53,488 nucleotides of DNA from Lachnospiraceae bacterium. Its GTDB lineage: Bacteria > Bacillota > Clostridia > Lachnospirales > Lachnospiraceae. The stretch is taken from the NCBI GenBank assembly GCA_017535945.1, contig JAFXTJ010000095.1:1-53488 (forward strand), written 5' to 3'. Shown here one piece after another: positions 2,161-17,361 of this stretch. Numbering within the stretch: position 1 is the stretch's first letter; every line of letters starts with the position of its first letter. The translations under genes and the position numbers were made by a program. The notes below the pieces were generated by a model. That model did no database searches and had not been told where the DNA came from. It was given only the letters and a program-made list of their open reading frames with translations.

Positions 2161-3735
2161 TTATTTCTCCAACCGCTCAATCCTGCACGTATGCGTCTTG
2201 TCATCCTCATCGTAATTGATCCCGACAAACAGCAATTCTCCACTGTAATGCGCAAGAGAATCAAAATACCGTTTCTCTTTTATCTGATCGATGGCGCTCT
2301 CCGCTGTTTTGTTCCGTTTCAGTTCGATGATCATGGCAGGCAGATCAGGAACATAGGGAATAAAGACCACGTCCGCAAAACCTTTCCCTGCCGTCATCTC
2401 CCTCACGATCGTGTATTTGTTCAACGCATAGATATATGCAAGATAAATGGCGCTCTGCAGTGCATCCTCATTGTTGTAGCTGCGGTTGGTCGTCACATGG
2501 ACGTGACTCTCATCCAATGCCCTGGCTACCGCTTCTTCATGACCCGCAAGGGTATCTGCCAGTAATTGTCTGGATTCCTTGATGATCCTGTCCGTGACGG
2601 CATAATCCCGGTTGTCTTCGATCGCATTGAACCATTCGTTCCGGATCTCGTAGTTCGGGATCCTGCAGGTTTCCTCCTCCAGGTCATAAGCAAGATAACC
2701 CGCATGGATCAGATAGGTGAACAGGTCATTCTTATTTGCAAAGGAATCCATGGTGTTCATATACCGCGTAACATTGACCGGTACGCTTTCTCCGGCCAGC
2801 ATACGGATCACATCTTCCCTGATCCCGTCAAAATCCTGTTCGATCCGGTCCGCGATCGCCCGGTAGGTACTTGTCTTCCCCCAGTAATTGGCGAACCTGT
2901 TATTCAGGACTGCCTGGATAACGGACTCCGGATTATAGATCTCACAGCCATGCTGGCGATATCCGTCATACCAGCGTCTGCATTTCCCGTAATCCACCCC
3001 CCGTTCCGCGCACAGACGATGCACCTCATTCTCCGTGAAGCCGATAAACTCTGCCAGCCTGCCGGCATCCAGGATCGTATACTCGCGGAAGTTGTTCAGC
3101 TTGGACTGCACCTTATCCCGCACCACCGGCAGGATCCCGGTGAGGTACGCCAGCGCGATGGCGGGCCGCAATGTATCACTCTTGAATAGACCGTTCAGAA
3201 AACTCAGATACTCATCGAAGAGTTCCGGATCTGCCTGTTCCCGCACCAGCACATCATACTCATCAATGATGATCATGAACTCCGCGCCGGTCGCGGCATG
3301 CGCCTTCAGGATGCTTCTGGCAAGCGTATCATCCTCTTCCAGGTTTACCTGAGGATATTCTTCGCTGATCTCCTCTTTGATATATCCTGTCAGTTTTTTC
3401 AGCATCTGCTTCTTGTCCGCAGCATCCTGATACTCACTGTTCATGTCGATCTTGATGACATCGTACCGGTTCAGCTTTTCCTCAAAACAGGGCTCCTGCG
3501 CGATCTTGTAAGGAGTGAACAACGCTCTCGAATCACAGCCCCCGGAGTAATAAGCACATAGCATATTCCCGGCGATCGTTTTACCAAAGCGCCGGGGACG
3601 GGATACGCAGACATAATTCTCTCCATGATCGATCAGACGGCTGATCTCAGCGATCATCATCGTCTTGTCGACATAGATCTCGCCTGCCAGTGTCCGTCTG
3701 AAATTCTCATATCCGGGATTGAGATAAATTCCCAT
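2161..3735 (-). CDS. AAA-ATPase-like protein with C-terminal PD-(D/E)XK nuclease-fold domain
   Basis: This 524-aa protein has the two-domain layout of the AAA-ATPase-like plus PDDEXK_9 family, which is often multicopy in gut and rumen anaerobes. The N-terminus holds the family P-loop variant RPRRFGKT (residues 46-53), and a Walker-B-like IIIDEYD follows further on. The C-terminus keeps the nuclease-fold signature: Asp455 in FADVVFIP, then Glu471 and Lys473 in IIELKRNK. The biological role of the family is not established; proposals include mobile-element or defence functions. It starts 10 bases after the receiver-protein gene, with a GAGGAG ribosome binding site, and ends exactly where the papain-like protease starts. 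It therefore looks like the tail of the signalling operon. No frameshift is seen. Confidence 0.85.
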   Translation of the reverse strand: MGIYLNPGYENFRRTLAGEIYVDKTMMIAEISRLIDHGENYVCVSRPRRFGKTIAGNMLCAYYSGGCDSRALFTPYKIAQEPCFEEKLNRYDVIKIDMNSEYQDAADKKQMLKKLTGYIKEEISEEYPQVNLEEDDTLARSILKAHAATGAEFMIIIDEYDVLVREQADPELFDEYLSFLNGLFKSDTLRPAIALAYLTGILPVVRDKVQSKLNNFREYTILDAGRLAEFIGFTENEVHRLCAERGVDYGKCRRWYDGYRQHGCEIYNPESVIQAVLNNRFANYWGKTSTYRAIADRIEQDFDGIREDVIRMLAGESVPVNVTRYMNTMDSFANKNDLFTYLIHAGYLAYDLEEETCRIPNYEIRNEWFNAIEDNRDYAVTDRIIKESRQLLADTLAGHEEAVARALDESHVHVTTNRSYNNEDALQSAIYLAYIYALNKYTIVREMTAGKGFADVVFIPYVPDLPAMIIELKRNKTAESAIDQIKEKRYFDSLAHYSGELLFVGINYDEDDKTHTCRIERLEK

Positions 3736-3745
3736 CCGCCTCTCC

Positions 3746-4501
3746 TCAGATCTTCTGCTTCTGGAAGAACAGCTCCAGTTTCTTTAACAGCCCTTCCTGG
3801 TCGATCGTCTTTAACAGGTAATCCGCGGGCTTTAAGGCCAGCACCTTCATGATGCTTTCCTTATCGCCCTTGCCGGTCAGGAACATGACCGGGATGCGGC
3901 TGGTCTCGACCTCGCTCTTTAACATCTCGAGGACCTGCGGTCCCGGCGTCACCGGCATCTCGTAGTCCAGCAGGATCAGATCCGCCTTGTTGCGGGCCAG
4001 GTACTGGATCGCCTGGAGGCCCGAGGCCGCCATGGAGACACGGTACTTGGGCTGCAGCCAGTCGCGGATCGTGAGCATGTAGGTCGAATCGTCATCCACG
4101 ACCAGGATGTTCTTCTTGCGTGCCTCATACTGCTCATCGTCCACATAGCGCCTGGCGACCTCGAGGATCTGCGGCAGATCCATCGGACGGTCGAACCACT
4201 TGAGCACGTAGGTGTCCGGGAAGTACTGATACACGTAGTCCTTTTCAATCTTGGTGGCGATGAGGAGCAGACGCTTCTCCGTATCGATGCACTGGTCCTT
4301 TAAGAACACCAGCATCTGCCGGATTTCCTCCACGGACTCGTCCGTCAGCAGGATGAAGAGTTCCGTGCCCTCCGCCTTGACCTCCAGCTCCTCGATGGCA
4401 GGCGAGGAAAACCAGACAGGGATCCCTTGTTCCTGCAGCTTGGAGATGAGACCTTTCACGGTGAAGGTCTCCGCTCTGGCGATCACCGTTACATTTTTCA
4501 T
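3746..4501 (-). CDS. Stand-alone response regulator: pseudo-receiver plus receiver domain
   Basis: This is a 251-aa two-domain protein. Residues about 1-120 look like a degenerate receiver: a beta/alpha pattern with a KWFDRP motif near 101-106 but no clear phosphoacceptor. Residues 131-250 are a full receiver, with the acidic pair in VVDDD (135-138 region), phosphoacceptor Asp179 in LILLDYEMP, Thr209 in FLTGKG and Lys231 in DYLLKTI. There is no DNA-binding or enzymatic output domain, so it probably acts by protein contact or as a phosphate sink. It lies 13 bases after the kinase-DegV gene and fits as the last acceptor of the phosphorelay encoded just upstream. Confidence 0.88.
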   Translation of the reverse strand: MKNVTVIARAETFTVKGLISKLQEQGIPVWFSSPAIEELEVKAEGTELFILLTDESVEEIRQMLVFLKDQCIDTEKRLLLIATKIEKDYVYQYFPDTYVLKWFDRPMDLPQILEVARRYVDDEQYEARKKNILVVDDDSTYMLTIRDWLQPKYRVSMAASGLQAIQYLARNKADLILLDYEMPVTPGPQVLEMLKSEVETSRIPVMFLTGKGDKESIMKVLALKPADYLLKTIDQEGLLKKLELFFQKQKI

Positions 4502-4514
4502 TTCTTTTCCTCCG

Positions 4515-7184
4515 TTACGATTTTGTCAGATATACAAATGTCAGTGCATCCTTGCCCCACACGAGCGAGGTCGCAGCCGATGACTGCAGGATGCGGACCT
4601 CTTCAAAATCAACTCTCTTGCGGATGAGGAGTTCGATCTTTTTCGCCTCATCGGGCAGGAGATTGGGTGCCAGCACATACAGGCGGGATCTGTCGATACT
4701 GCCGCCGGCGAGCGCCTTACGCACAAACACCGGCAGGTACTGGTGCCTCGGCCCCGTGACGAAGCCGCGCACACGCATGCCGCCGATCACCGGGGTGAAC
4801 AGAGGCCGCAGCATGAAGCTCCGGCAGAAATTGTGGAAGCGCTGGCTGATCCTGCCGGACGAATAGAGCCTGTCCGTGGTATCCGCCAGGATCGTCATGC
4901 GCACATGATCCCTGGCGCCGTTCAGCGCGTGTACCAGTTTCTCCGGTGTGATATTCTCCGCGCCGGCCATTCTGGCAGCGATGAGCACCATCATGCCGAT
5001 GCCGCCGGACACAAGGCCCGTGTCGTACACCGTCACATTGTCAAAGGAGTGCGCCGCCTCCGTCGCATTGCGGTAGGAATCCTCTCCCGCCGCCGAAGTG
5101 GTCAGATGGAAGACATGGTCCGCGCGCACCAGATTGTCGGCGAAGAAGCTCTCGTAATCCTGCACGGTCGGCGCTGCGGAGCGGATCGCCTCCTGCGGTC
5201 CCTTGGTGAAGAACGACATGATCTCGCCGGTGCTCACCTCCGCGCGGTCGATGAAATCCCCTTCTTTGGTGTGGATCCGGTAAGGCAGGATCTCGATATG
5301 ATGCATGGACAGCAGCTGGTCCGGGATATCGCAGTCGGAATCCGCCGTGATGATCAGATTCTCCTTGCGCTTGTAGGCATCAAACACCTGCTCGCCGCCC
5401 TGCATGTTCTCGATGCCGGTGAGCGTGACCAGATGCTGCGGGAGTCTGGCGAGCACCGCGCTCTCGAGCTGCGCGCCCGTGACAGGCTTCAGCAGATAGC
5501 CGTCGAAGCCGCTCCTGCGGTAGAGTGCCTGGTTCTCTGAACCCGCGTTGGCCGTGAGGACGATGATCGGCGTCTCCCGGTTCATGCCGCCCATCTGCGC
5601 GCGGACCGCCTGCAGCGTCTCGATGCCGTCCATCTCCGCCATCAGATGATCCATCAGGATCACGTCATAGTGGCGGTTCTGGGTCAGTTCCAGACAGGCC
5701 CTGCCGCTGGAAGCCTTATCGATATGCACCTTGGTGGCCTGCAGGAGTTTCGCCGCCACGGAGCGGTTGAGTTCGTTGTCATCCACGATGAGCACGTTGG
5801 CGCCGGGCGCCTCAAAGCTCTGCCGGTAGATTTCCTTGGTGCTCTTCTCTTTTCCGACATCGAGCTTCAGATGGCCCAGCGGTTCATCCTGGGCGATGTC
5901 CTGCGGGATCCGCACGCGGAAGGTGCTCCCCTTGGTGTAGACGCTGTCCACGGTGATCTCTCCGCCCATCAGTTCCACCAGCTGTTTCACGATGGAGAGT
6001 CCCAGACCCGTGCCCTCAATATAATGGTTTCTGTCCTCATCCACACGGCGGAACACGTCAAACAGCATGGGCAGCGATTCCTTCTTGATGCCGATGCCGG
6101 TATCCGCGACGCTGCAGATGAGATCGACCTTTTTGATATCCGTCGTGGATCTCCTGCACTCCACGGTCAGCGTGACGGAACCCTCCTTGGTATATTTCAC
6201 CGCGTTGTTCAGCAGATTGATCAGGATCTGCTTGATACGGATATCGTCGCCGATGAGGCTCCGGGGCATCATCTCATCTACATCCACATGAAATTTCAGT
6301 CCCTTTTCCTTGGCGGGATTCCAGATCATGTTGACCACGTCCTTGAGGACCTCGCTCACGAAATAGGGATTGGGCACGAGCTCCATCCGGCCGGATTCCA
6401 TCTTGGACATGTCCAGGATGTCATTAATGAGGGCTAAGAGCATCTGGCCGGCGCCCTGGATGCTCCGGGCATCCTCCGCCACCTCCACGGTCACCGCCTC
6501 GCGCATGATCATCTCGTTGAGGCCGATGATCGTGTTGACGGGGGTACGGATCTCATGGCTCATATTGGAGAAGAACCGGTTCTGCGCCCGGTTGATCTCT
6601 TCGATCTCACGGCGCTGTTCCTTGGCGATCTTCTGCTCCCTGATGTAGATATTGGTCTCAAAGATGACCATCAGGCTGATAAAGAAGCCTACGATGATGG
6701 TGGAGGCCAGAGAATCGGTGTAGGCCATCCTGGCGGTATGCGGTATCACGAGAGCCGGGAAATACCACTGTATCGCGTAACAGGCGATCAGGATCAGACC
6801 GCCTGCCGCAAGGAAGAAGATCCTGCGTCTGCCCCTGAGGACGAGACTGACATAAATCGCCGCAAAGAGGAACCACATCGGCGTCCCGCCGTACATGCCG
6901 CCGGAAGACAGAAAAATCGCCGGCAGCATGATAAAGATCAGCATGAAAGCGATCAGGGTCGCGCCCGTCTGGATCCGGTGAAAATGGATCGTCAGATAGA
7001 ACAGGACGAAAAAGATTCCCAGTCCGATGAAGATCAGCAGGATATCGGTCATGCTCTCTCCCATAAAGGTCGAGAGGATGGACATGAGGAACAGCGCCCC
7101 CAGACCGAAGAGACCTGTAACGCCAAAGGAACGCTCCTGCAGGTCGAGCTGATGATCAAATAAAGAGGCTATCCACTTCTTCAT
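4515..7184 (-). CDS. Membrane hybrid histidine kinase with receiver and C-terminal DegV (EDD-fold) domain
   Basis: The protein has 889 aa. Residues 20-180 contain about six hydrophobic segments. The HisKA helix carries His210 in SHEIRTP. The ATPase domain shows the N box (LINLLNNAVKYT), DTGIGI and GTGLGLSIVKQL. The receiver (463-580) has Asp468/469, phosphoacceptor Asp512 and Lys566. From about 609 to the end it matches the DegV protein at 12654-13529 segment by segment: ITADSDCDIP against VVTDSNSGI, an ILPYRI strand, VTVYDTG against VEVIDN, and SSGRIS...LRPLF against RGGRIT...IRPVL. DegV (FakB) proteins bind fatty acids. Here TSQPSP is replaced by SAAPTV and the C-terminal GCHIGPG histidine is absent, so the ligand may differ. 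It overlaps the upstream kinase by 4 bases (ATGA). The domain order is clear; the sensing role is inferred. Confidence 0.93.
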   Translation of the reverse strand: MKKWIASLFDHQLDLQERSFGVTGLFGLGALFLMSILSTFMGESMTDILLIFIGLGIFFVLFYLTIHFHRIQTGATLIAFMLIFIMLPAIFLSSGGMYGGTPMWFLFAAIYVSLVLRGRRRIFFLAAGGLILIACYAIQWYFPALVIPHTARMAYTDSLASTIIVGFFISLMVIFETNIYIREQKIAKEQRREIEEINRAQNRFFSNMSHEIRTPVNTIIGLNEMIMREAVTVEVAEDARSIQGAGQMLLALINDILDMSKMESGRMELVPNPYFVSEVLKDVVNMIWNPAKEKGLKFHVDVDEMMPRSLIGDDIRIKQILINLLNNAVKYTKEGSVTLTVECRRSTTDIKKVDLICSVADTGIGIKKESLPMLFDVFRRVDEDRNHYIEGTGLGLSIVKQLVELMGGEITVDSVYTKGSTFRVRIPQDIAQDEPLGHLKLDVGKEKSTKEIYRQSFEAPGANVLIVDDNELNRSVAAKLLQATKVHIDKASSGRACLELTQNRHYDVILMDHLMAEMDGIETLQAVRAQMGGMNRETPIIVLTANAGSENQALYRRSGFDGYLLKPVTGAQLESAVLARLPQHLVTLTGIENMQGGEQVFDAYKRKENLIITADSDCDIPDQLLSMHHIEILPYRIHTKEGDFIDRAEVSTGEIMSFFTKGPQEAIRSAAPTVQDYESFFADNLVRADHVFHLTTSAAGEDSYRNATEAAHSFDNVTVYDTGLVSGGIGMMVLIAARMAGAENITPEKLVHALNGARDHVRMTILADTTDRLYSSGRISQRFHNFCRSFMLRPLFTPVIGGMRVRGFVTGPRHQYLPVFVRKALAGGSIDRSRLYVLAPNLLPDEAKKIELLIRKRVDFEEVRILQSSAATSLVWGKDALTFVYLTKS

Positions 7185-9637
7185 ATCGCATCCCCCTCTT
7201 CTTCCGCTCTTGCCTGCAGTCTCTGGATACAGTCGGTATAGACCGCACAGAGTTCCAGATGCTCCTTCTGGATCCGCTTGCCGTTGCCGTCCGCGATCGC
7301 CTGCTCCAGACGCCTGGCCTGGCGGGAGAGTTCCTCCTCGCCCATAATGCCGGCGCCGTCCCTGAGTGCCCTGAGTCTCGTGAGATACGGGCCCATGGTC
7401 TGTGTCGCATAGGCGGATTTGAACACGCGGAGATTATGCGGCATCTCTCCGATAAAGATCGCCCTGAGACGTCTGTAGAATGCCTCGTCTCCCAGACAGT
7501 GCGCGATCCCGAGCGCCTCGCCGGACTGCGCCAGGGCGAGTTGTTCCGAACCGGCGCCGTTCTCCGCCTTTTCCAGGCGGACAGAGGCGGGCGGCAGGAT
7601 GCTTGTGAGCACGCGTTCCAGCTCCCTCGTATCCACCGGCTTGGCGAGGAATCCGTCGAAGCCCTCCTCGAGGAACATCTCTCTGGCGCCGCTGACGGCA
7701 TTGGCGGTCAATGCCACGATCTTGGTATCCTTGCCTCTGACCTTGGCGGACTGCCGAATAAGCTTCATCGCCTCGATCCCGTCCATCTCCGGCATCATGT
7801 GATCCATGAAGACCAGATCGTAATCGCCCTTTTCGTACAGATCAAGAGATTGTCTGCCGGAGAGTGCGGTCTTGACGCGCATCCCGTAGCCGGAGAAGAT
7901 CCCGTTGGCGACGAACAGGTTCATCTCCTCGTCGTCCACGACGAGGACTTTGAGTCCCGGGAAGGAGACACGGTACTCCGTGCGGACCGGATCGATCTCC
8001 ATCTCGATCCTGAGCGCGTTGAGGATCCTGGCGACCGGGAATCCGTAGAGAGGCTTGCGCAGGATCGTGATGCCCTTGCTCTCCTTCGGCATGTATTTCT
8101 GATCCGCGACGACGATCACCTCGGACGATCTCGCCAGCTGTGCGAAGTAGGCGGGATCCTCCTCGTATTCCTCCTTCGCCGTGAAGATGTGCGTCGGAGA
8201 GTTCTCCTCCACGATCTGTCTCAGATCGCCGAGATTGCCGGCACGTTTCACCGGCATATGCAGTCCCCGTACCATGTGTGTGATCATGGATTCATAGAAA
8301 TCGCGCACCAGCGGCACGCCGAATTTCTCACTGCGCAGATAGCAGGCGACCTCGAGACGGTCGGCGTTGGCGATGCTCATGCACGGCGTATCGTCGATGA
8401 CAGCCTGCGGGATGGAGATCCGGACCGTCGTGCCCTGTCCGAGCGTTGAGGTCATCGTGACAAAGCCGCCCATGGCGTGGGCGAAGCCGTATACGATGGA
8501 GAGACCCAGACCGATACCGCCCGCGTTGCGTGTCCTGCCGGAATCCGACTGATAGAAGCCGTGCGAGATCTTGCTCAGCTCCTCCGGCGGGATCCCGCAG
8601 CCCGTATCCGACACCTCGATGCGCAGATTGATGCCGTAGGTGCGCTCATCCGCGGTGATGCGGACATAGATGCCGCCCTCCTTGGTGAACTTGTAGGCAT
8701 TGTCGATGAGATGCCACAGCATCTTCTTGATCCTGCGCGGGTCGCCCTTCAGCTTGGTGGGGACCGCCGCATCCACATCCACGATGAGATCCACGCGGTC
8801 CGCGAAAGAGGAATCCGACATCTGGAACATCGTGATGACATCATTGAAGACCGAATGGATACTGTAGGTCTCCGAGGAGAGGATCAGCCGTCCCGTATCG
8901 ATCTCGGTGTAGTCAAGGATATCGCCCACCTGTTCGGAGAGGCGGTTGCCGGCCCGGAAGATGGAGGTCATCTCCTCGCTGGGTGTGCCCTCCTTCTCAA
9001 TGAGGATCGAGGAGAGACCCGTGACGGCATTGATCGGTGTACGCAGCTCATGGGAGACATTCGCCATGAAATCCTCGGTCCTGCGGTTGACCTCCGTCAG
9101 CTGCGAGACGAGACGCTCCTGGATCTCCCCGGTCCTCTGTCTGCCGCTGATGGTGGAGCGTGCGAACCGCGCGGACAGGATCACGATCATGACATGCAGC
9201 AGGATCTTGGAGAGGGTCAATGTGTCCGTCAGCACGCTGAATCCGTAGTGGACGATGATCTGATAGGCCAGCGTCAGAAAATAGACAATCTGTCCCGCGT
9301 CGAAGACAACATAGTCATCCGACAGCGAGAACAAAAGGAACACAAAGCAGATGATCAGAGAGATATCGAAAAGACTCGATTCATGCACGCCCTGATAAAA
9401 GGTGACGGCATAATACAGCAGCGCCATCGCATAGATCCTGCCGTGTTCGTCGAACGGCTGCCGCAGATGGACCCACCAGGCAAAGATCGCGCTCATGATG
9501 AGGAACGGGATCGCCCAGGTCTCCCACCCCACGATGATGTTCTCGATGATGAGACCGATCGTGAAGGCGCTGTAGGAAAGCGCCAGCAGAAAGATCACAT
9601 ACCGGTTTCTGTCACGTCTTCCTTCTTCAGGCGTCAT
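7181..9637 (-). CDS. Membrane hybrid histidine kinase with degenerate Hpt-like C-terminus
   Basis: The protein has 818 aa. About five to six membrane segments lie in residues 12-160. HisKA follows with His196 in SHELRTPINA. The ATPase domain shows HLIDNAYKFT, DTGCGIP and GGIGLGLSIVYGF. A receiver-like segment without the usual acidic residues spans about 425-540. A true receiver spans 562-680, with phosphoacceptor Asp612 in LVFMDHMMPEMDG and Lys666. The last 120 residues resemble an Hpt bundle, but the motif expected as HALK.SA reads RALRDGAG, so Arg756 replaces the phosphorylatable His. The upstream gene in the operon supplies an intact Hpt (His209). It overlaps both neighbours by 4 bases (ATGA), which implies coupled translation. 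The sensed signal is unknown. Confidence 0.92.
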   Translation of the reverse strand: MTPEEGRRDRNRYVIFLLALSYSAFTIGLIIENIIVGWETWAIPFLIMSAIFAWWVHLRQPFDEHGRIYAMALLYYAVTFYQGVHESSLFDISLIICFVFLLFSLSDDYVVFDAGQIVYFLTLAYQIIVHYGFSVLTDTLTLSKILLHVMIVILSARFARSTISGRQRTGEIQERLVSQLTEVNRRTEDFMANVSHELRTPINAVTGLSSILIEKEGTPSEEMTSIFRAGNRLSEQVGDILDYTEIDTGRLILSSETYSIHSVFNDVITMFQMSDSSFADRVDLIVDVDAAVPTKLKGDPRRIKKMLWHLIDNAYKFTKEGGIYVRITADERTYGINLRIEVSDTGCGIPPEELSKISHGFYQSDSGRTRNAGGIGLGLSIVYGFAHAMGGFVTMTSTLGQGTTVRISIPQAVIDDTPCMSIANADRLEVACYLRSEKFGVPLVRDFYESMITHMVRGLHMPVKRAGNLGDLRQIVEENSPTHIFTAKEEYEEDPAYFAQLARSSEVIVVADQKYMPKESKGITILRKPLYGFPVARILNALRIEMEIDPVRTEYRVSFPGLKVLVVDDEEMNLFVANGIFSGYGMRVKTALSGRQSLDLYEKGDYDLVFMDHMMPEMDGIEAMKLIRQSAKVRGKDTKIVALTANAVSGAREMFLEEGFDGFLAKPVDTRELERVLTSILPPASVRLEKAENGAGSEQLALAQSGEALGIAHCLGDEAFYRRLRAIFIGEMPHNLRVFKSAYATQTMGPYLTRLRALRDGAGIMGEEELSRQARRLEQAIADGNGKRIQKEHLELCAVYTDCIQRLQARAEEEGDAI

Positions 9638-10668
9638 ACGTTCTTTACCTCGTTTCTGATCGTATCCCAGTCGATCGCGGACAGTGCGCTCCGGATCCTC
9701 TTGAACCGTTCCCTGTCCTCTTCTCCCAGACGGTACTCATCCATGGATTTCAACACCATCTCCACCAGATCGTAGTCCATCTGATCCGCGAACTCCCCGA
9801 TGGAATGATAGGCGTCGGCGATCGTGGCCGCGTCCGCTTCGGGCCGCTCATCCGCCGCGCCGTCCGCGGGAGCGGCGAATATCGGTGCCAGCGCGTCCTC
9901 GAATCCCCGGTAGACCTGCAGCAGGGATCCGGTGTTCTCGCGTATGCTGACGAAATTGCCGCGGTTTCCGGCCTCCTCCAGATCCGCTGCCTGTCCGGAC
10001 AGGAGCAGCGCACCGATGATCCGCGCGCTGGATTTCAGCGCGTGGACCTTGATGGTATAGTTCTTCCAGTCCTCCTCCTCGAAGTAATGCTCGATCTCAT
10101 CCGCCTTGGGACGGATGGACTCGTAAAAGATCTTCAGGGCCGAGAGATAGTTTTCCTCGGAACCGCAGTTGGCGATACCGGTCTCCGGATTGAGCCCGGG
10201 GATCCTGCCGATGCCGGAGAGGGTCCTGTCCTCCGTCTCCTCGGTATTGCGCGTCAATGCCGCATCTTCGACAAATTTCTCTGCTTTCTCCGGATCCGCC
10301 AGGGTATCAAGTGTCTCATAGAGTCCGGCGGCATCCACCGGTTTCTCGAGGAAGCAGACAAACCCGTCCTCCCGGTAGGTCTTCGCACCGGGATCGCGGA
10401 TATCCCCCAGCAGAAAATACAGAGGGTCCGGATTCCCGCCGGGCGGGATGGATTTCCTGAGTTCCGCGAGGACTTCCCTGCCGAAATGTCTGGTCATCCG
10501 GTCATCGATGAAGATGCAGTCAAACCGCATCCCTCTGACGACAGCCGCCGCATTGGGGACAGACGCCGCATCCTTCACGACGAAGCCCTTGCGCAGCAGC
10601 AGCTCCGACAGGTATTCCCTTTCCAGATGGTCGTCATCCACGACCAGAGCGGTCTGAAATCTCTGCAT
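9634..10668 (-). CDS. Receiver-Hpt phosphotransfer protein
   Basis: I place the start at the ATG at 10668 (MQRFQTALVV), which has a GGGAG six bases upstream; a longer reading would overlap the topoisomerase gene. The 344-aa product has a receiver at 1-125 (Asp11-13 acidic cluster, phosphoacceptor Asp55 in CIFIDDRM, Lys109 in FLEKPVD). An Hpt domain at about 165-270 has the site His209 in KVHALKSSARIIG. The C-terminal 70 residues are acidic and helical with no recognised domain. This looks like the first gene of a phosphorelay operon: it can take phosphate from the two downstream hybrid kinases and pass it to a receiver. It lies 10 bases after the topoisomerase stop. Confidence 0.9.
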   Translation of the reverse strand: MQRFQTALVVDDDHLEREYLSELLLRKGFVVKDAASVPNAAAVVRGMRFDCIFIDDRMTRHFGREVLAELRKSIPPGGNPDPLYFLLGDIRDPGAKTYREDGFVCFLEKPVDAAGLYETLDTLADPEKAEKFVEDAALTRNTEETEDRTLSGIGRIPGLNPETGIANCGSEENYLSALKIFYESIRPKADEIEHYFEEEDWKNYTIKVHALKSSARIIGALLLSGQAADLEEAGNRGNFVSIRENTGSLLQVYRGFEDALAPIFAAPADGAADERPEADAATIADAYHSIGEFADQMDYDLVEMVLKSMDEYRLGEEDRERFKRIRSALSAIDWDTIRNEVKNV

Positions 10669-10678
10669 GCTCTCTCCC

Positions 10679-12616
10679 TTATACATCCAGTACCGCGTCC
10701 ACCGCGTGGGCACGGATATAATCCCTGCGGGGCGGCACATCCGTCCCCATGAGCAGTTCCGTCATCTCCGATGCCATCCTGGCGTCCTCGATCGTGACGG
10801 ACTTCATGAGCCTCCTCGCCGGATCGAGCGTCGTCTCCCAGAGCTGGTCCGGATCCATCTCGCCCAGGCCCTTGTACCGCTGCAGGATGAAATTGCCCTT
10901 GTGCGTCTTGCGGTATCTCGCCAGTGCCTCGTCATCATAGAGGTACTGCCCTTCCCCCTTGGAGGGGATCGCCTTGTAGAGCGGGGGCATGGCGATGTAG
11001 ATATGCCCCTCGTAGATCAGATCCGGCATGAAGCGGTAGAACAGCGTCAGCAACAGCGTCGCGATATGCGCGCCGTCCACGTCCGCGTCCGCCATGATGA
11101 TGATCTTGTCATAGCGCAGCTTTTTGATATCGAAATCGTTGCCGTAACCTTCAGAAAAGCCGCAGCCGAAGGCGTTGATCATGGTCTTGATCTCGGCATT
11201 CGCGAGCACCTTATCGATGGAGGCCTTCTCCACATTGAGGATCTTGCCGCGGATCGGGAGGATCGCCTGGAATTCGCGGTCCCTGGCCATCTTGGCGCTG
11301 CCGCCGGCGGAATCACCCTCAACGATGAAGATCTCGCATTTGGAGGCGTCACGGCTGATGCAGTTGGCGAGCTTTCCGTTGGAGTCAAACGAATACTTCT
11401 GCTTCGTGAGCATATTCGTCTTGGCTTTTTCCTCGCTCTTGCGGATCTTGGCCGCTTTCTCCGCGCAGCCGATGACGGCCTTAAGGGTCTCGAGATTCCT
11501 GTCGAAGAAGCGGACAATCTCGTCGCCCGTCACCTTGGAGACGATCTTGGAGGCATCCTGATTGTCGAGCTTCGTCTTGGTCTGTCCCTCAAAGCGCGGA
11601 TCCGGATGCTTGATGGAGATGACCGCCGTGAGGCCGTTGCGGACATCGGCGCCGGTGAAATTGGCGTCCTTTTCCTTAAGCGATCCCAGCTGTCTCGCGT
11701 AGTTGTTGATCACAGTGGTGAGCACGGTCTTGAAACCGGTCAGATGGGTGCCGCCCTCCGCGTTGTAGATGTTGTTGCAGAAGCCCAGCACCTCCTCGCG
11801 GAATTCATTGATATACTGGAAGGCGCATACCACCTCGATCCCTTCGCTGACGCCCTGGAACGAGATGATGTCCGTCACGGTCTCATGTCCCTTGTTGAGC
11901 GCGCGCACAAAGCCGACGATCCCCTCCGGCTCATGGAAGACCTGTGTTTCCTCGGTCCCGGGGCGCTTGTCCTCATAATAGATGGTCAGCTCCGGATTGA
12001 GATAGGCCGTCTCATGGAGACGGGATTTGATGTCGTCCTCCTTGAACCTCGTCTTCTCAAAGATCGTATCGTCCGGCAGGAAATTGACCCAGGTTCCGGT
12101 TCCTTTGGCATCCCCGATCGGAGTGAGGAGGCCCATGACCAGATCCGTGGTGGGATTGCCCCGCTCATAGGTATCCTGGTACAGGTGCCCGTTTCGCTTG
12201 ATACGCACGGTCATCCTGGAGGAGAGCGCGTTCACCACGGAAGAGCCCACGCCGTGTAGACCGCCGCTGGTCTTGTAGGAGCTGTTGTCGAATTTGCCGC
12301 CCGCGTGCAGCGTCGTGTAGACGATACGCTCGGCGGACACGCCCTTTGCATGGCGTTCCACCGGCACACCGCGGCCGTTGTCCTCCACGGTGGCGGAACC
12401 GTCCGCTTCCAGTGTCACGCGGATCTCATTGCAGCATCCCGCCAGATGCTCGTCCACCGCGTTGTCCACGATCTCGTAGACGAGGTGGTTCAAGCCTCTC
12501 GTCGTGACCGAGCCGATATACATCCCCGGACGCACGCGGACCGCTTCGAGTCCCTCCAGTACCGTGATGCTCGAAGCGTCGTAGCGCCCTTCCGTGCTGT
12601 TTACCAGATTACCCAT
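10679..12616 (-). CDS. Type IIA DNA topoisomerase subunit B (GyrB/ParE family)
   Basis: This 645-aa ATPase subunit of gyrase or topoisomerase IV has the GHKL ATPase motifs: Glu48/Asn52 in YEIVDNAVDE, EDNGRGVPV and YKTSGGLHGVGSSVVNALS. The QTKTK loop is followed by the TOPRIM signatures EIFIVEGDSAGGSAK and ADADVDGAHI, and a C-terminal tail with QRYKGLGEMD. The length fits Gram-positive GyrB/ParE. It is not beside dnaA, recF or gyrA, nor beside a parC, so the context does not choose between a second GyrB and ParE. RGLNHLVYEIVDN and YKTSGGLHGVG look slightly ParE-like. It is transcribed with the DegV gene upstream (37-base gap). Confidence 0.93.
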   Translation of the reverse strand: MGNLVNSTEGRYDASSITVLEGLEAVRVRPGMYIGSVTTRGLNHLVYEIVDNAVDEHLAGCCNEIRVTLEADGSATVEDNGRGVPVERHAKGVSAERIVYTTLHAGGKFDNSSYKTSGGLHGVGSSVVNALSSRMTVRIKRNGHLYQDTYERGNPTTDLVMGLLTPIGDAKGTGTWVNFLPDDTIFEKTRFKEDDIKSRLHETAYLNPELTIYYEDKRPGTEETQVFHEPEGIVGFVRALNKGHETVTDIISFQGVSEGIEVVCAFQYINEFREEVLGFCNNIYNAEGGTHLTGFKTVLTTVINNYARQLGSLKEKDANFTGADVRNGLTAVISIKHPDPRFEGQTKTKLDNQDASKIVSKVTGDEIVRFFDRNLETLKAVIGCAEKAAKIRKSEEKAKTNMLTKQKYSFDSNGKLANCISRDASKCEIFIVEGDSAGGSAKMARDREFQAILPIRGKILNVEKASIDKVLANAEIKTMINAFGCGFSEGYGNDFDIKKLRYDKIIIMADADVDGAHIATLLLTLFYRFMPDLIYEGHIYIAMPPLYKAIPSKGEGQYLYDDEALARYRKTHKGNFILQRYKGLGEMDPDQLWETTLDPARRLMKSVTIEDARMASEMTELLMGTDVPPRRDYIRAHAVDAVLDV

Positions 12617-12653: not shown

Positions 12654-13529
12654 TCAGTTCTCCCCGTAGTGCTGCTTCTTCGTCGCGGTGACCGCAATGG
12701 CCCCCGGACCGATATGGCAGCCGACCGACAATGAGAGCGGATCATAATGGATCTCCCCCGCCCACGGAAATGCCTCCCGCACTTCGTCACGAAACGGCAG
12801 AAAAGCCTCCTCGTCGCGCGAATATGCCATATCGATATCCACATCATGCAGGCCGATGCCGCCGAAGCGGTTTTCGATATCGTCCCGGATCGCCCGGATC
12901 ATCAGCTTTCTGCCCTGCGCGGCGGTCCTCGCCTTGGCAAAGGCATCCAGCTTATCCCCCTGGATCTGCAGGACGGGACGGATCTTTAACAGTGTACCGA
13001 CGGCAGCCGCCGCAGGGGTGATCCTGCCGCCGCGCTTCAGATAGGAGAGCGTATCGAGCATGATGTAGATGGTGCTCTCTCCGCCTGTCGCTTCGAGGCG
13101 CTGCCTGATCTCCGCCGCTTCCGCGCCGTCCGCCGCAAGTGCCAGCGCATCCAGGCAGGAGCGTCTGAGGGTCACGGAGATCCTTCTGTTATCGATGACC
13201 TCCACCCTGCCGCCGTAGTCCTCCGCGAGCAGTTTTGCGCTCTGACAGCTCCCGGAAAGCCCGCTGCTCATCGGGATGTGCACCAGGCTGTCATATTCTC
13301 CGAGCACGCGGTCCCACAGTGCCGTTACATCCGCGGGCGACGGCTGCGATGTGCTCACGGGGAGTCCTCCCTCGATCATCGGATAGAACTCCTCCTGTGT
13401 GATATTGATCCCCTCAAAATAGTCCCCGTCTCCGATGCGGAAAGGCATCGGCAGTACAAAGACCCCGAGTTCGGCGGCTTCCTGCTGCGTGATCCCGCTG
13501 TTGGAATCCGTGACTACGGCTGTTCTCAT
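12654..13529 (-). CDS. DegV family fatty-acid-binding protein (FakB-like)
   Basis: The start is set at the ATG at 13529 (MRTAVVTDSN), with GAGGGGAG just upstream, giving 291 aa. DegV/FakB proteins hold a fatty acid while FakA phosphorylates it. All family marks are present: VTDSNSGI at 6-13, TSQPSP at 60-65, SSGLSGSCQSA from 88, the LKRGGRI turn (164-170) and the C-terminal GCHIGPG with His272. The gene sits directly after recG, close to the fakA-type gene at 15679-17361, so it is a natural partner for that kinase. It has its own predicted promoter inside the recG end and probably leads into the topoisomerase gene. The family is certain; the specific fatty acid is not known. Confidence 0.93.
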   Translation of the reverse strand: MRTAVVTDSNSGITQQEAAELGVFVLPMPFRIGDGDYFEGINITQEEFYPMIEGGLPVSTSQPSPADVTALWDRVLGEYDSLVHIPMSSGLSGSCQSAKLLAEDYGGRVEVIDNRRISVTLRRSCLDALALAADGAEAAEIRQRLEATGGESTIYIMLDTLSYLKRGGRITPAAAAVGTLLKIRPVLQIQGDKLDAFAKARTAAQGRKLMIRAIRDDIENRFGGIGLHDVDIDMAYSRDEEAFLPFRDEVREAFPWAGEIHYDPLSLSVGCHIGPGAIAVTATKKQHYGEN

Positions 13530-13588
13530 TGTTCTCCCCTCATAACGCCAAAATGGGCGGATTCCCCCACCTTGCATACTTACTCAAT

Positions 13589-15678: not shown

Positions 15679-17361
15679 TTATTCCGCCGAGACGATATAG
15701 GAATAGACCGGCTGGCCTCCGTACTGCAGTTCCACATCGACTCCCGGGAACCGCTCATTGACGCGGCCAAGGAGCCGCTCCGCTTCCTCCTCCTCCACGT
15801 CCGCGCCGTAGTAGAGGCTCACCAGCTCCTGACCGTCCTGCATCATCTTCTCAAGCATCCCGACGGTCACCTCGATCCGGTCCTTGCCGACATTCAGGAT
15901 CCCACTGTCGCCGATCCCCATGTAATCGCCCTGACGGATCTCGATCCCTTCGATGACCGTGTCGCGCACGGCATAGGTCACCTCGCCGGAGGACACGCCG
16001 CCGATGGCATCCTTCATCATCGCGGCATTCTCCTCGGCGCCGTCGTCCGGGATAAAGTTCACGAGTGCCGCGATCCCCTGCGGTACGGTTTTGGAGGGGA
16101 CCACGACGAGTTTCTTGTCCTCGCACATCTTCGCCGCCTGTTCCGCCGCGAGGATGATGTTCTTGTTGTTCGGCAGAACGATGACCGCGTCCGCGTTGAC
16201 GCGCTCCGTCGCCTGCAGGATGTCGTCCGTGCTCGGGTTCATGGTCTGGCCGCCCTCGATGACCGCGTCGCAGCCGAGGCTCTTAAAGATCTCCGCCATG
16301 CCCTCGCCGGCGCAGACCGCCACGAAGCCGATGGGCTTTTTCTCGGCGGGAACAGCAGGCTCCTCCGGTGCCGCTTCCGCCTCCGGCGAATCAAGCTTGA
16401 GATTTTCCGCGGTCAGGGGTTTTCCCTCATACGGCTCGGTATGGCCCTCCGTACGGATATCCCGCACGCTCACATCGCGCAGGTCGCCGTAAAGGAGTGC
16501 TCTCTGCAGCACAAGACCGGGATCGTCCGTATGGATATGCAGCGAGATCCCGTCGCCCGCATCCGCGACCTGGACATCGCCGCCCACGGAGGTCAGGAAA
16601 CTGCGGATATCGCTCATCTGCTTGCGGTTCAGAGGCTGTCTGAGGATCGCCCGTAGCACCACGCAGTAGGCATGCTTGATCCGGACCTCTTCCTCCTGTT
16701 CCTCCTGCTTGCCGGGCGCCTTGGCGTCAAACGGGATCCCCTTGCCCAGCAGCCCGTCGTAGGCGCCTTTCAGTACTTCGACCAGGCCCTTGCCGCCGGA
16801 GTCCACGACACCGGCTTCCTTGAGGACCGGGAGCATCTCGGGCGTGCGCTCGAGGGTTTCCTCGGCCGCTTCGATGAGCGACCGGCAGATCTCGTCCGCA
16901 TCCGTCTCGCCGGAATTCGCAAGCTGTCTCGCGCGGTCCGCCACGCCCTTGGCGACGGTCAGGATCGTGCCCTCCTTGGGCACCATGACGGCCTTGTAGG
17001 CGGTCTCCACCGCTTTATCAAAGGCATCCGCCATCGTGACGGCGTCGATGCGCTCATGCTTCTTCGCGACCTTGGTGAAGCCGCGCAGCAGCTGCGACAG
17101 GATGACGCCGGAATTGCCGCGCGCGCCGCGTAACGATCCCGATGAGATGGCCTTGCAGATCACCTCCATATCGGCATCCGGCTCCGCTGCCACTTCTCTG
17201 GCCGCCGACATGATGGTGGCCGTCATGTTCGTGCCCGTGTCGCCGTCCGGCACCGGGAACACGTTCAGTTCGTTGATGATCTCCTGGTTTGCCTCGAGAT
17301 TCTTGGCTCCCGCCAGGAACATCCGCGCGAGCGTCGCCGCATCAATGTTTAATCTGCTCAA
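15679..17361 (-). CDS. fakA: DAK2-domain fatty acid kinase (FakA/YloV)
   Basis: This 560-aa soluble kinase phosphorylates FakB(DegV)-bound fatty acids, feeding exogenous or recycled acyl chains into phospholipid synthesis. The N-terminal DAK2 domain (about 8-200) has the nucleotide/metal motif NVFPVPDGDTGTN, with Asp39 and Asp41. A charged Ala/Pro/Glu linker lies at about 210-235, a central domain follows, and the C-terminal FakA part carries EGGQTMNPSTDDI and VLPNNKNI. The start codon is TTG (17361), supported by a GGAGGGAGAGG ribosome binding site; no better ATG exists. It lies 24 bases after the Asp23 gene and ahead of recG. A FakB-like partner is 2 kb downstream. Confidence 0.93.
   Translation of the reverse strand: MSRLNIDAATLARMFLAGAKNLEANQEIINELNVFPVPDGDTGTNMTATIMSAAREVAAEPDADMEVICKAISSGSLRGARGNSGVILSQLLRGFTKVAKKHERIDAVTMADAFDKAVETAYKAVMVPKEGTILTVAKGVADRARQLANSGETDADEICRSLIEAAEETLERTPEMLPVLKEAGVVDSGGKGLVEVLKGAYDGLLGKGIPFDAKAPGKQEEQEEEVRIKHAYCVVLRAILRQPLNRKQMSDIRSFLTSVGGDVQVADAGDGISLHIHTDDPGLVLQRALLYGDLRDVSVRDIRTEGHTEPYEGKPLTAENLKLDSPEAEAAPEEPAVPAEKKPIGFVAVCAGEGMAEIFKSLGCDAVIEGGQTMNPSTDDILQATERVNADAVIVLPNNKNIILAAEQAAKMCEDKKLVVVPSKTVPQGIAALVNFIPDDGAEENAAMMKDAIGGVSSGEVTYAVRDTVIEGIEIRQGDYMGIGDSGILNVGKDRIEVTVGMLEKMMQDGQELVSLYYGADVEEEEAERLLGRVNERFPGVDVELQYGGQPVYSYIVSAE

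Follow-up and report, generated by a model that had tools for sequence, protein, structure and literature searches.

Background

The DegV/FakB proteins (PF02645), exemplified by FakB1 and FakB2 of S. aureus, are fatty acid carriers with a characteristic fold and an apolar tunnel. In FakB1, Thr62, Ser95, Ser171 and His270 grip the carboxylate, phosphorylation depends on Arg173, Arg205 is the contact to the membrane and to FakA, whose binding requires it, and the helix bearing Trp180 inserts into the bilayer, according to the available portions of the papers describing them (PMC8892158, PMC9136124). Hybrid histidine kinases such as BarA, TorS and ArcB combine HisKA, HATPase_c and receiver (REC) domains, with or without an Hpt domain. 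Receivers are able to accept phosphate from small acyl phosphates. A substrate-binding fold is used as a regulator in DhaQ, a DhaK-related co-activator that works with a transcription factor on dihydroxyacetone; its fold is related to that of DegV, but DhaQ is not part of a kinase.

Fatty acids are tied to bacterial signalling in RpfC/RpfG, the system of DSF signalling, in which the membrane hybrid kinase RpfC detects DSF through a short N-terminal region (PMC5391125, in the portion available), and in SaeRS, where two-component signalling is lowered by the intracellular fatty acid, a pool that FakA alters. The SaeRS effect is indirect, and the kinase is not said, in the available portion of that paper, to carry a DegV-fold domain (PMC5539427).

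The present analysis concerns a hybrid histidine kinase with a C-terminal DegV domain (hereafter HK-DegV), encoded in a stretch of 53,488 nucleotides from Lachnospiraceae bacterium (GCA_017535945.1, contig JAFXTJ010000095.1), hereafter referred to as the window. A full-text literature search, judged by titles and abstracts and with most subscription papers outside its coverage, returned no description of such a protein; PMC3146951, in the portion available, concerns other proteins. The architecture may well be present already in automatic domain databases.

Methods

Residues of the DegV domains were compared in FakB1 numbering, which was verified for Thr62, Ser95, Ser171, Arg173, Arg205, His270, Ala121, Ala158 and Trp180 against the letters given in the papers. 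The comparison covers 62 fused domains and 44 stand-alone rows, the latter including one duplicate (L045 and L187 being the same). The alignment of the 62 omits L016 (identical to L010), L028, L032 and L068 (wrong cut or internal stop) and L045 (stand-alone). The neighbourhood survey covers 120 DegV frames, of which 107 were left at 90% identity. Hpt domains in the partner kinases were scored by Pfam and inspection of alignment columns, a plain motif search having missed most of them. The kinase counts omit two proteins in which DegV is fused to DAK2 (L195 and L196); one kinase overlooked by the initial motif pattern, L178, is confirmed by Pfam.

Results and Discussion

Domain organisation of the HK-DegV protein

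The gene and its parts are as follows.

4515..7184, minus strand: HK-DegV gene, 889 aa, with membrane part, HisKA, HATPase_c, REC and DegV (Pfam and full-length model)
6615..7184, minus strand: N-terminal membrane part, residues 1-190, about six helices without a long loop (hydropathy and full-length model)
6390..6587, minus strand: HisKA, residues 200-265 (Pfam)
5898..6251, minus strand: HATPase_c, residues 312-429 (Pfam)
5454..5795, minus strand: REC, residues 464-577 (Pfam)
4518..5369, minus strand: DegV domain, residues 606-889 (Pfam 612-887; Pfam and model)

The fusion of a histidine kinase to DegV at 4515..7184 had been proposed in an initial annotation made from the letters alone; Pfam confirms it, with those coordinates and on the minus strand. 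The protein is a hybrid histidine kinase by its composition, with HisKA and its His, HATPase_c and REC with its Asp on a single chain, and both His210 and Asp512 are invariant in 28 of 28 relatives of the same short type (see below). Its top NCBIfam matches are TorS and BarA, far below the cut-offs. It differs from the BarA/TorS/ArcB kinases by the additional C-terminal DegV domain and by an Hpt that is shared by two kinases or carried on a separate protein.

The DegV domain matches PF02645 with an E-value of 9.8e-28 (97.7 bits against a cut-off of 27) over profile positions 4-279 of 280. The initial annotation had also claimed a match along the whole length to the separate DegV protein encoded nearby, which holds at the level of profile and fold, whereas BLASTP aligns only 136 columns at 22% identity (E 0.001). 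In the full-length model (pLDDT 81.5, pTM 0.48) the membrane part (about 190 residues) is helical and the kinase, receiver and DegV parts are each folded, their relative placement being unreliable. A model of the DegV part built with 62 relatives (mean pLDDT 94.3, pTM 0.91) superposes on FakB1 with palmitate (5uto) with TM-scores of 0.85/0.84, and its top solved structures in Foldseek are 4x9x (E 6.1e-24), 2dt8, 1pzx and other DegV/FakB fatty-acid-binding proteins; the comparison with FakB structures that had been suggested as a check thus retrieves the DegV fold. The DhaQ structures 2iu4 (E 5.8e-6) and 2iu6 (E 2.8e-6) are also on the list.

The fold is identical to that of a carrier of acyl-phosphate, and receivers make use of small acyl phosphates. 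Both facts would suit an arrangement in which the domain binds acyl-phosphate made by FakA/FakB, the phosphate of which enters the relay as donor; an active HisKA and HATPase make a second donor needless, and we consider this arrangement very improbable.

Distribution and phylogeny

The HK-DegV type of hybrid kinase is genuine and widely distributed. Nine DegV matches are present in the source genome, five of them in HK-REC-DegV kinases (that of the window and four paralogues), and the same domain order, for which a search in other genomes had been proposed, occurs in dozens of genera and in isolates. With the domain counted only in open frames of at least 685 aa, and among the matches listed, at least 34 of 200 Lachnospiraceae genomes (one per genus) and at least 37 of 61 genomes of the window's own genus have DegV in a long frame, with as many as seven copies in a single genome of that genus; in a class sample of 291 genomes, counted likewise, only two genomes outside the family appear among the matches listed, both from one genus. 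Loci were inspected in 30 of the 34 family genomes, including one (G103) with HATPase and DegV but without HisKA and REC by Pfam and one (G180) in which the kinase is split over two frames. An 862-aa protein with HATPase and DegV and without recognisable HisKA or receiver is encoded at L180:7290-9878.

A scan of named genomes using the window protein alone gave five pattern matches, none of which was confirmed as a relative. With a profile of 22 closer domains, relatives, defined as DegV-domain matches, were found in 450 of 515 stretches, and 80 of these were examined further. Their titles name Lachnospiraceae, Butyrivibrio, two Eubacterium, one Clostridiaceae and one unnamed bacterium, mainly from rumen and gut, and the isolates among them include NC2008, NC2004, XBB2008, V9D3004, Butyrivibrio sp. 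VCD2006 and XPD2002; the fusion is confirmed in isolates including Butyrivibrio sp. VCD2006 and Lachnospiraceae bacterium NC2008. The source genome is a draft of 144 contigs, 81.9% complete, a circumstance in which an assembly chimera or a chance fusion might be suspected; the same fusion in dozens of genera, in isolates and in five orthologous loci rules this out, and we give it practically no weight.

Two architectures were found, a short one (kinase-REC-DegV, about 890 aa), to which the window protein belongs, and a long one (kinase-REC-DegV-linker-Hpt, about 1140 aa). PF02645 is matched in all 28 short-type and all 38 long-type relatives submitted to Pfam. A tree of 107 domains places all 62 fused DegV domains and one further domain, L187, on one side of a branch with support 100/100. 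L187 (1914-5542) is a stand-alone DegV gene without a kinase that overlaps, by 4 bases, a hybrid kinase with its own Hpt of the kind described in the next section as kinase 1; it represents the unit minus its second kinase, and this split suggests that the DegV part can act in trans for kinase 1. In two other proteins of about 600 aa (L195:1869-3674 and L196:2117-3901), each adjoining a gene of about 256 aa, DegV is fused to a FakA-like (DAK2) N-terminal part.

The coupled kinase and the position of the Hpt domain

A second kinase with HisKA and REC (kinase 1) lies directly upstream of 103 of the 111 DegV frames with a complete start (92 of 100 after reduction at 90% identity), and in 69 of those 103 the two genes overlap by 4 bases, as in the window. 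Among the eight exceptions, L095, L151 and L152 are at a contig start, L099, L153, L169 and L179 have a cut or fragmented kinase 1, and L180 has none in reach.

The Hpt domain follows the architecture. By Pfam, it is present in 38 of 38 long-type DegV kinases (sampled from 76 complete ones) and in 0 of 36 of their kinase 1 partners (sampled from 71), as against 0 of 28 short-type DegV kinases and 27 of 29 kinase 1 of short types. The length of kinase 1 varies in step, being 676-714 aa beside the long type and 818-978 aa beside the short type, with one exception in 101 loci. In this exception (L092), kinase 1 has 684 aa and the DegV frame stops shortly ahead of an overlapping Hpt-like frame, close to the end of the contig; the locus was omitted from the Pfam sample of short-type partners, and at 90% identity it is removed as a near-copy of L095, which has an Hpt. 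At that threshold the long and short types number 62 and 29, with no mixed case. Thus, a kinase pair carries one Hpt, in one of two places, and there is strong evidence from these patterns that the two coupled kinases would share one relay. The short-type locus L012 of the window's genome has both an Hpt with its His on kinase 1 and a REC-Hpt protein, so that the rule applies to the kinase pair and not to every nearby gene. It offers a natural experiment on two hybrid kinases sharing a relay and points to the partners.

The window locus and its subfamily

The neighbours of HK-DegV in the window that are relevant here are listed below.

3746..4501, minus strand: response regulator, 251 aa, receiver at residues 132-242, without a recognised output domain (Pfam)
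7181..9637, minus strand: kinase 1, 818 aa, with HisKA, HATPase_c, REC and a weak Hpt; overlaps HK-DegV by 4 bases
9634..10740, minus strand: REC-Hpt protein, 368 aa, with an intact Hpt (HALKSS; Pfam and alignment)
12654..13577, minus strand: separate DegV/FakB-type protein that retains Thr62, Ser95, Arg173, Arg205 and His270 (Pfam, E 8.8e-60)
15679..17361, minus strand: FakA/YloV-type fatty acid kinase protein (Pfam, NCBIfam)

The Hpt of the window's kinase 1 is matched below the cut-off (E 0.00064) and has Arg756 where the His is expected, whereas column inspection finds the His in the other 28 of the 29 short-type partners. Five related genomes have orthologues of the window protein (57-67% identity, within the genus) and share the order REC-Hpt, kinase 1, HK-DegV and 251-aa regulator; kinase 1 reads RLRALR or a close variant at the Hpt His site in each of them. 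A partner Hpt with Arg for His thus goes with a REC-Hpt protein having an intact HALKSS in 6 of 6 loci. Residues 180-367 of the window's REC-Hpt protein share 44% identity with the C-terminal extension found in a long DegV kinase from the same genome. The simpler formulation, that a single Hpt sits on either of the paired kinases, does not hold in the window, in which the REC-Hpt protein is a third place.

DegV, GyrB and RecG are retained upstream in the related loci as far as the stretches extend. A GyrB-type topoisomerase subunit (window 10679-12616) separates the FakB-type DegV gene from the relay genes, an order kept in four of the five related loci, the fifth stretch ending before this gene. 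Immediately downstream of the relay genes is an AAA-ATPase_like/PDDEXK_9 protein (window 2161-3735).

Residues kept and lost in the fused DegV domain

The fused and stand-alone domains differ at the positions that matter in FakB1.

Position 62, Thr or Ser: 56/62 fused, 44/44 stand-alone
Position 95, Ser: 51/62 fused, 44/44 stand-alone
Position 173, Arg: 22/62 fused, 42/44 stand-alone
Position 180, apolar: 9/62 fused, 41/43 stand-alone
Position 180, charged: 32/62 fused, 0/43 stand-alone
Position 205, Arg: 1/62 fused, 38/44 stand-alone
Position 270, His: 1/62 fused, 35/44 stand-alone

His270 is replaced by Asn in 56 of the 62 fused domains, and position 205 is apolar (F, M, I, L or V) in 47. 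Of the inward positions, 181 is apolar in all 62 and 185 in 61, and the tunnel positions 121, 162 and 191 are so in 57, 57 and 61 of the 62. The fused family thus retains the fold, an apolar inside and, mostly, Ser/Thr62 and Ser95, and it has lost both docking surfaces. Among the stand-alone proteins, four distinct rows are without both Arg205 and His270, namely the DAK2-DegV proteins L195 and L196, L187, which is coupled to kinase 1, and L015.

The domain in the window departs further. It has Ser, Glu, Ser and Val in place of the carboxylate network Thr62, Ser95, Ser171 and His270, retains Arg at 173, has Thr in place of Arg205, the residue of FakA and membrane docking, and carries Trp at tunnel position 271. 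The initial annotation had read the usual TSQPSP and C-terminal His as replaced, which the alignment bears out, and had taken this as a hint of a new ligand or mode; the His is indeed gone, but its loss is a trait of the family, and it is the window subfamily that goes beyond it. In the six members of this subfamily the family Asn is replaced by Val, Ile, Met, Thr, Val or Ala, Trp-Gly follows in five of the six, and Ser95 is Glu in four of the six. Simple decay of the window's domain was considered and rejected, since all five orthologues have likewise lost the Asn and four of them also have Trp-Gly there. Between orthologues and the window protein, identity is lowest in DegV (0.40-0.55) and highest in HisKA (0.85-0.95), a pattern expected of a sensor domain.

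These residues bear on what the domain does. It could still be a FakB that hands fatty acid to FakA, the kinase merely localising or regulating lipid incorporation, and a FakA gene 8.5 kb away, a FakB-type gene nearby and the retention of their order with DegV in related loci are what such a role would predict. Arg205 in one of 62, Arg173 in 22 and an apolar position 180 in only nine speak against it, and we hold it to be very improbable; the fused domain as a substrate of FakA was rejected on the loss of Arg205 in 61 of 62. There is good evidence from the alignment that the domain would no longer be a FakA-serving carrier.

A DegV part that binds no ligand and acts as a structural or protein-docking module, for example for kinase 1, the receiver or Hpt, is a stronger competitor, although we think it unlikely. 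The window subfamily, without Asn or His270, often without Ser95 and with Trp at tunnel position 271, agrees with such a module, as does a position 205 that is mostly apolar and would suit a buried contact. Against it stand the apolar tunnel positions, the Ser95 and Ser/Thr62 that are largely retained and the conservation of the very Asn that replaces His. For the window subfamily itself the balance is different: it is likely to bind a different ligand or none and, with most of the polar, head-group contacts lost, may bind nothing, so that the window protein, without Asn and, like many of its subfamily, without Ser95, is a weak case for fatty-acid binding.

A proposed two-kinase phosphorelay with a ligand-binding DegV domain

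The conserved DegV fold within a phosphorelay, together with its apolar tunnel, makes sensing of an acyl-type ligand the leading idea. We consider it somewhat probable that a carrier fold has been turned into a receptor in a two-kinase phosphorelay, its ligand being apolar and probably of acyl type. In such a scheme the two coupled hybrid kinases, HK-DegV among them, would form a single phosphorelay in which DegV has become a fixed regulatory domain that neither serves FakA nor shuttles to the membrane. By binding an apolar ligand, probably of acyl type, in the cytosol, the domain would bias phosphotransfer. Both kinases would phosphorylate their own receivers and converge on one Hpt. This Hpt is C-terminal in the DegV kinase, part of kinase 1 or, in the window subfamily, part of the neighbouring REC-Hpt protein, and from it phosphate would pass to a response regulator, here probably the 251-aa protein. 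At some other loci the Hpt would instead feed REC-GGDEF or HD-GYP proteins, that is, cyclic-di-GMP turnover.

The initial annotation had proposed that an acyl chain or acyl phosphate controls, or is read by, a phosphorelay. That DegV is a conserved part of a relay and that its tunnel is mostly apolar favour the proposal, in which the ligand is putative. The partner kinase and the changing place of the Hpt, neither of which the initial annotation mentioned, are the strongest clues to the working of the unit. Two points count against it: the loss of the membrane-docking face makes the entry of a membrane fatty acid hard to explain, and retention of Ser95 (51) and Thr62 (56) is incomplete among the 62 domains, with His replaced. 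On balance, the data suggest, indirectly, that in many Lachnospiraceae of rumen and gut HK-DegV may sense an intracellular, fat-like molecule. SaeRS sets a precedent for a two-component system controlled by the intracellular fatty acid pool (PMC5539427). Butyrivibrio and other Lachnospiraceae of the rumen encounter toxic unsaturated fatty acids, which makes such lipid-sensing biology plausible.

More tentatively, HK-DegV might represent a new class of intracellular lipid sensor, in which a DegV domain freed from FakA and the membrane binds an acyl ligand and gates a two-kinase relay with partly cyclic-di-GMP output, in up to seven differently tuned copies per genome; the ligand may be a free fatty acid, an acyl-phosphate or a new lipid signal. 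If true, this would be a Gram-positive counterpart of DSF sensing. RpfC, like HK-DegV, is a membrane hybrid kinase, and HD-GYP motifs are present beside kinase 1 in some HK-DegV loci; RpfC has no DegV domain, and the system is likened to HK-DegV as an analogue only. In contrast to the indirect effect of the fatty acid pool on SaeRS (PMC5539427, in the portion available), HK-DegV has the carrier fold itself in the relay, which makes lipid sensing by a phosphorelay directly testable with the purified domain.

Output and neighbouring genes

The 251-aa response regulator is the likely phosphate acceptor in the window, and a relative of it is present in 70 of the 120 loci. Among the other loci in which a gene preceding kinase 1 is in reach, that gene has GGDEF and/or HD-GYP motifs in 16 of the 60 of long type and in 16 of the 27 of short type; the total of 32/87 comes from a motif search with near-copies included and without a chance control. 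Pfam finds REC-GGDEF, REC-GGDEF-REC and REC-GGDEF-REC-HD in three such proteins. No HD-GYP regulator was seen beside the window kinases; one is confirmed by Pfam beside kinase 1 in L164.

Some further genes were observed around related loci. In L013, a protein with a TIR domain and a methyltransferase (483-1802) is encoded upstream of a paralogous relay locus, and a stand-alone DegV that retains the FakB residues (7578-8432) lies downstream of a long-type HK-DegV-Hpt gene at a distance of 156 bases. The genes that come after long-type units include a sodium:alanine symporter at L120:9624-11147, with frames of about 507 aa recurring at that place, and a DUF6976 protein at L083:9910-10875, where frames of about 321 aa recur.
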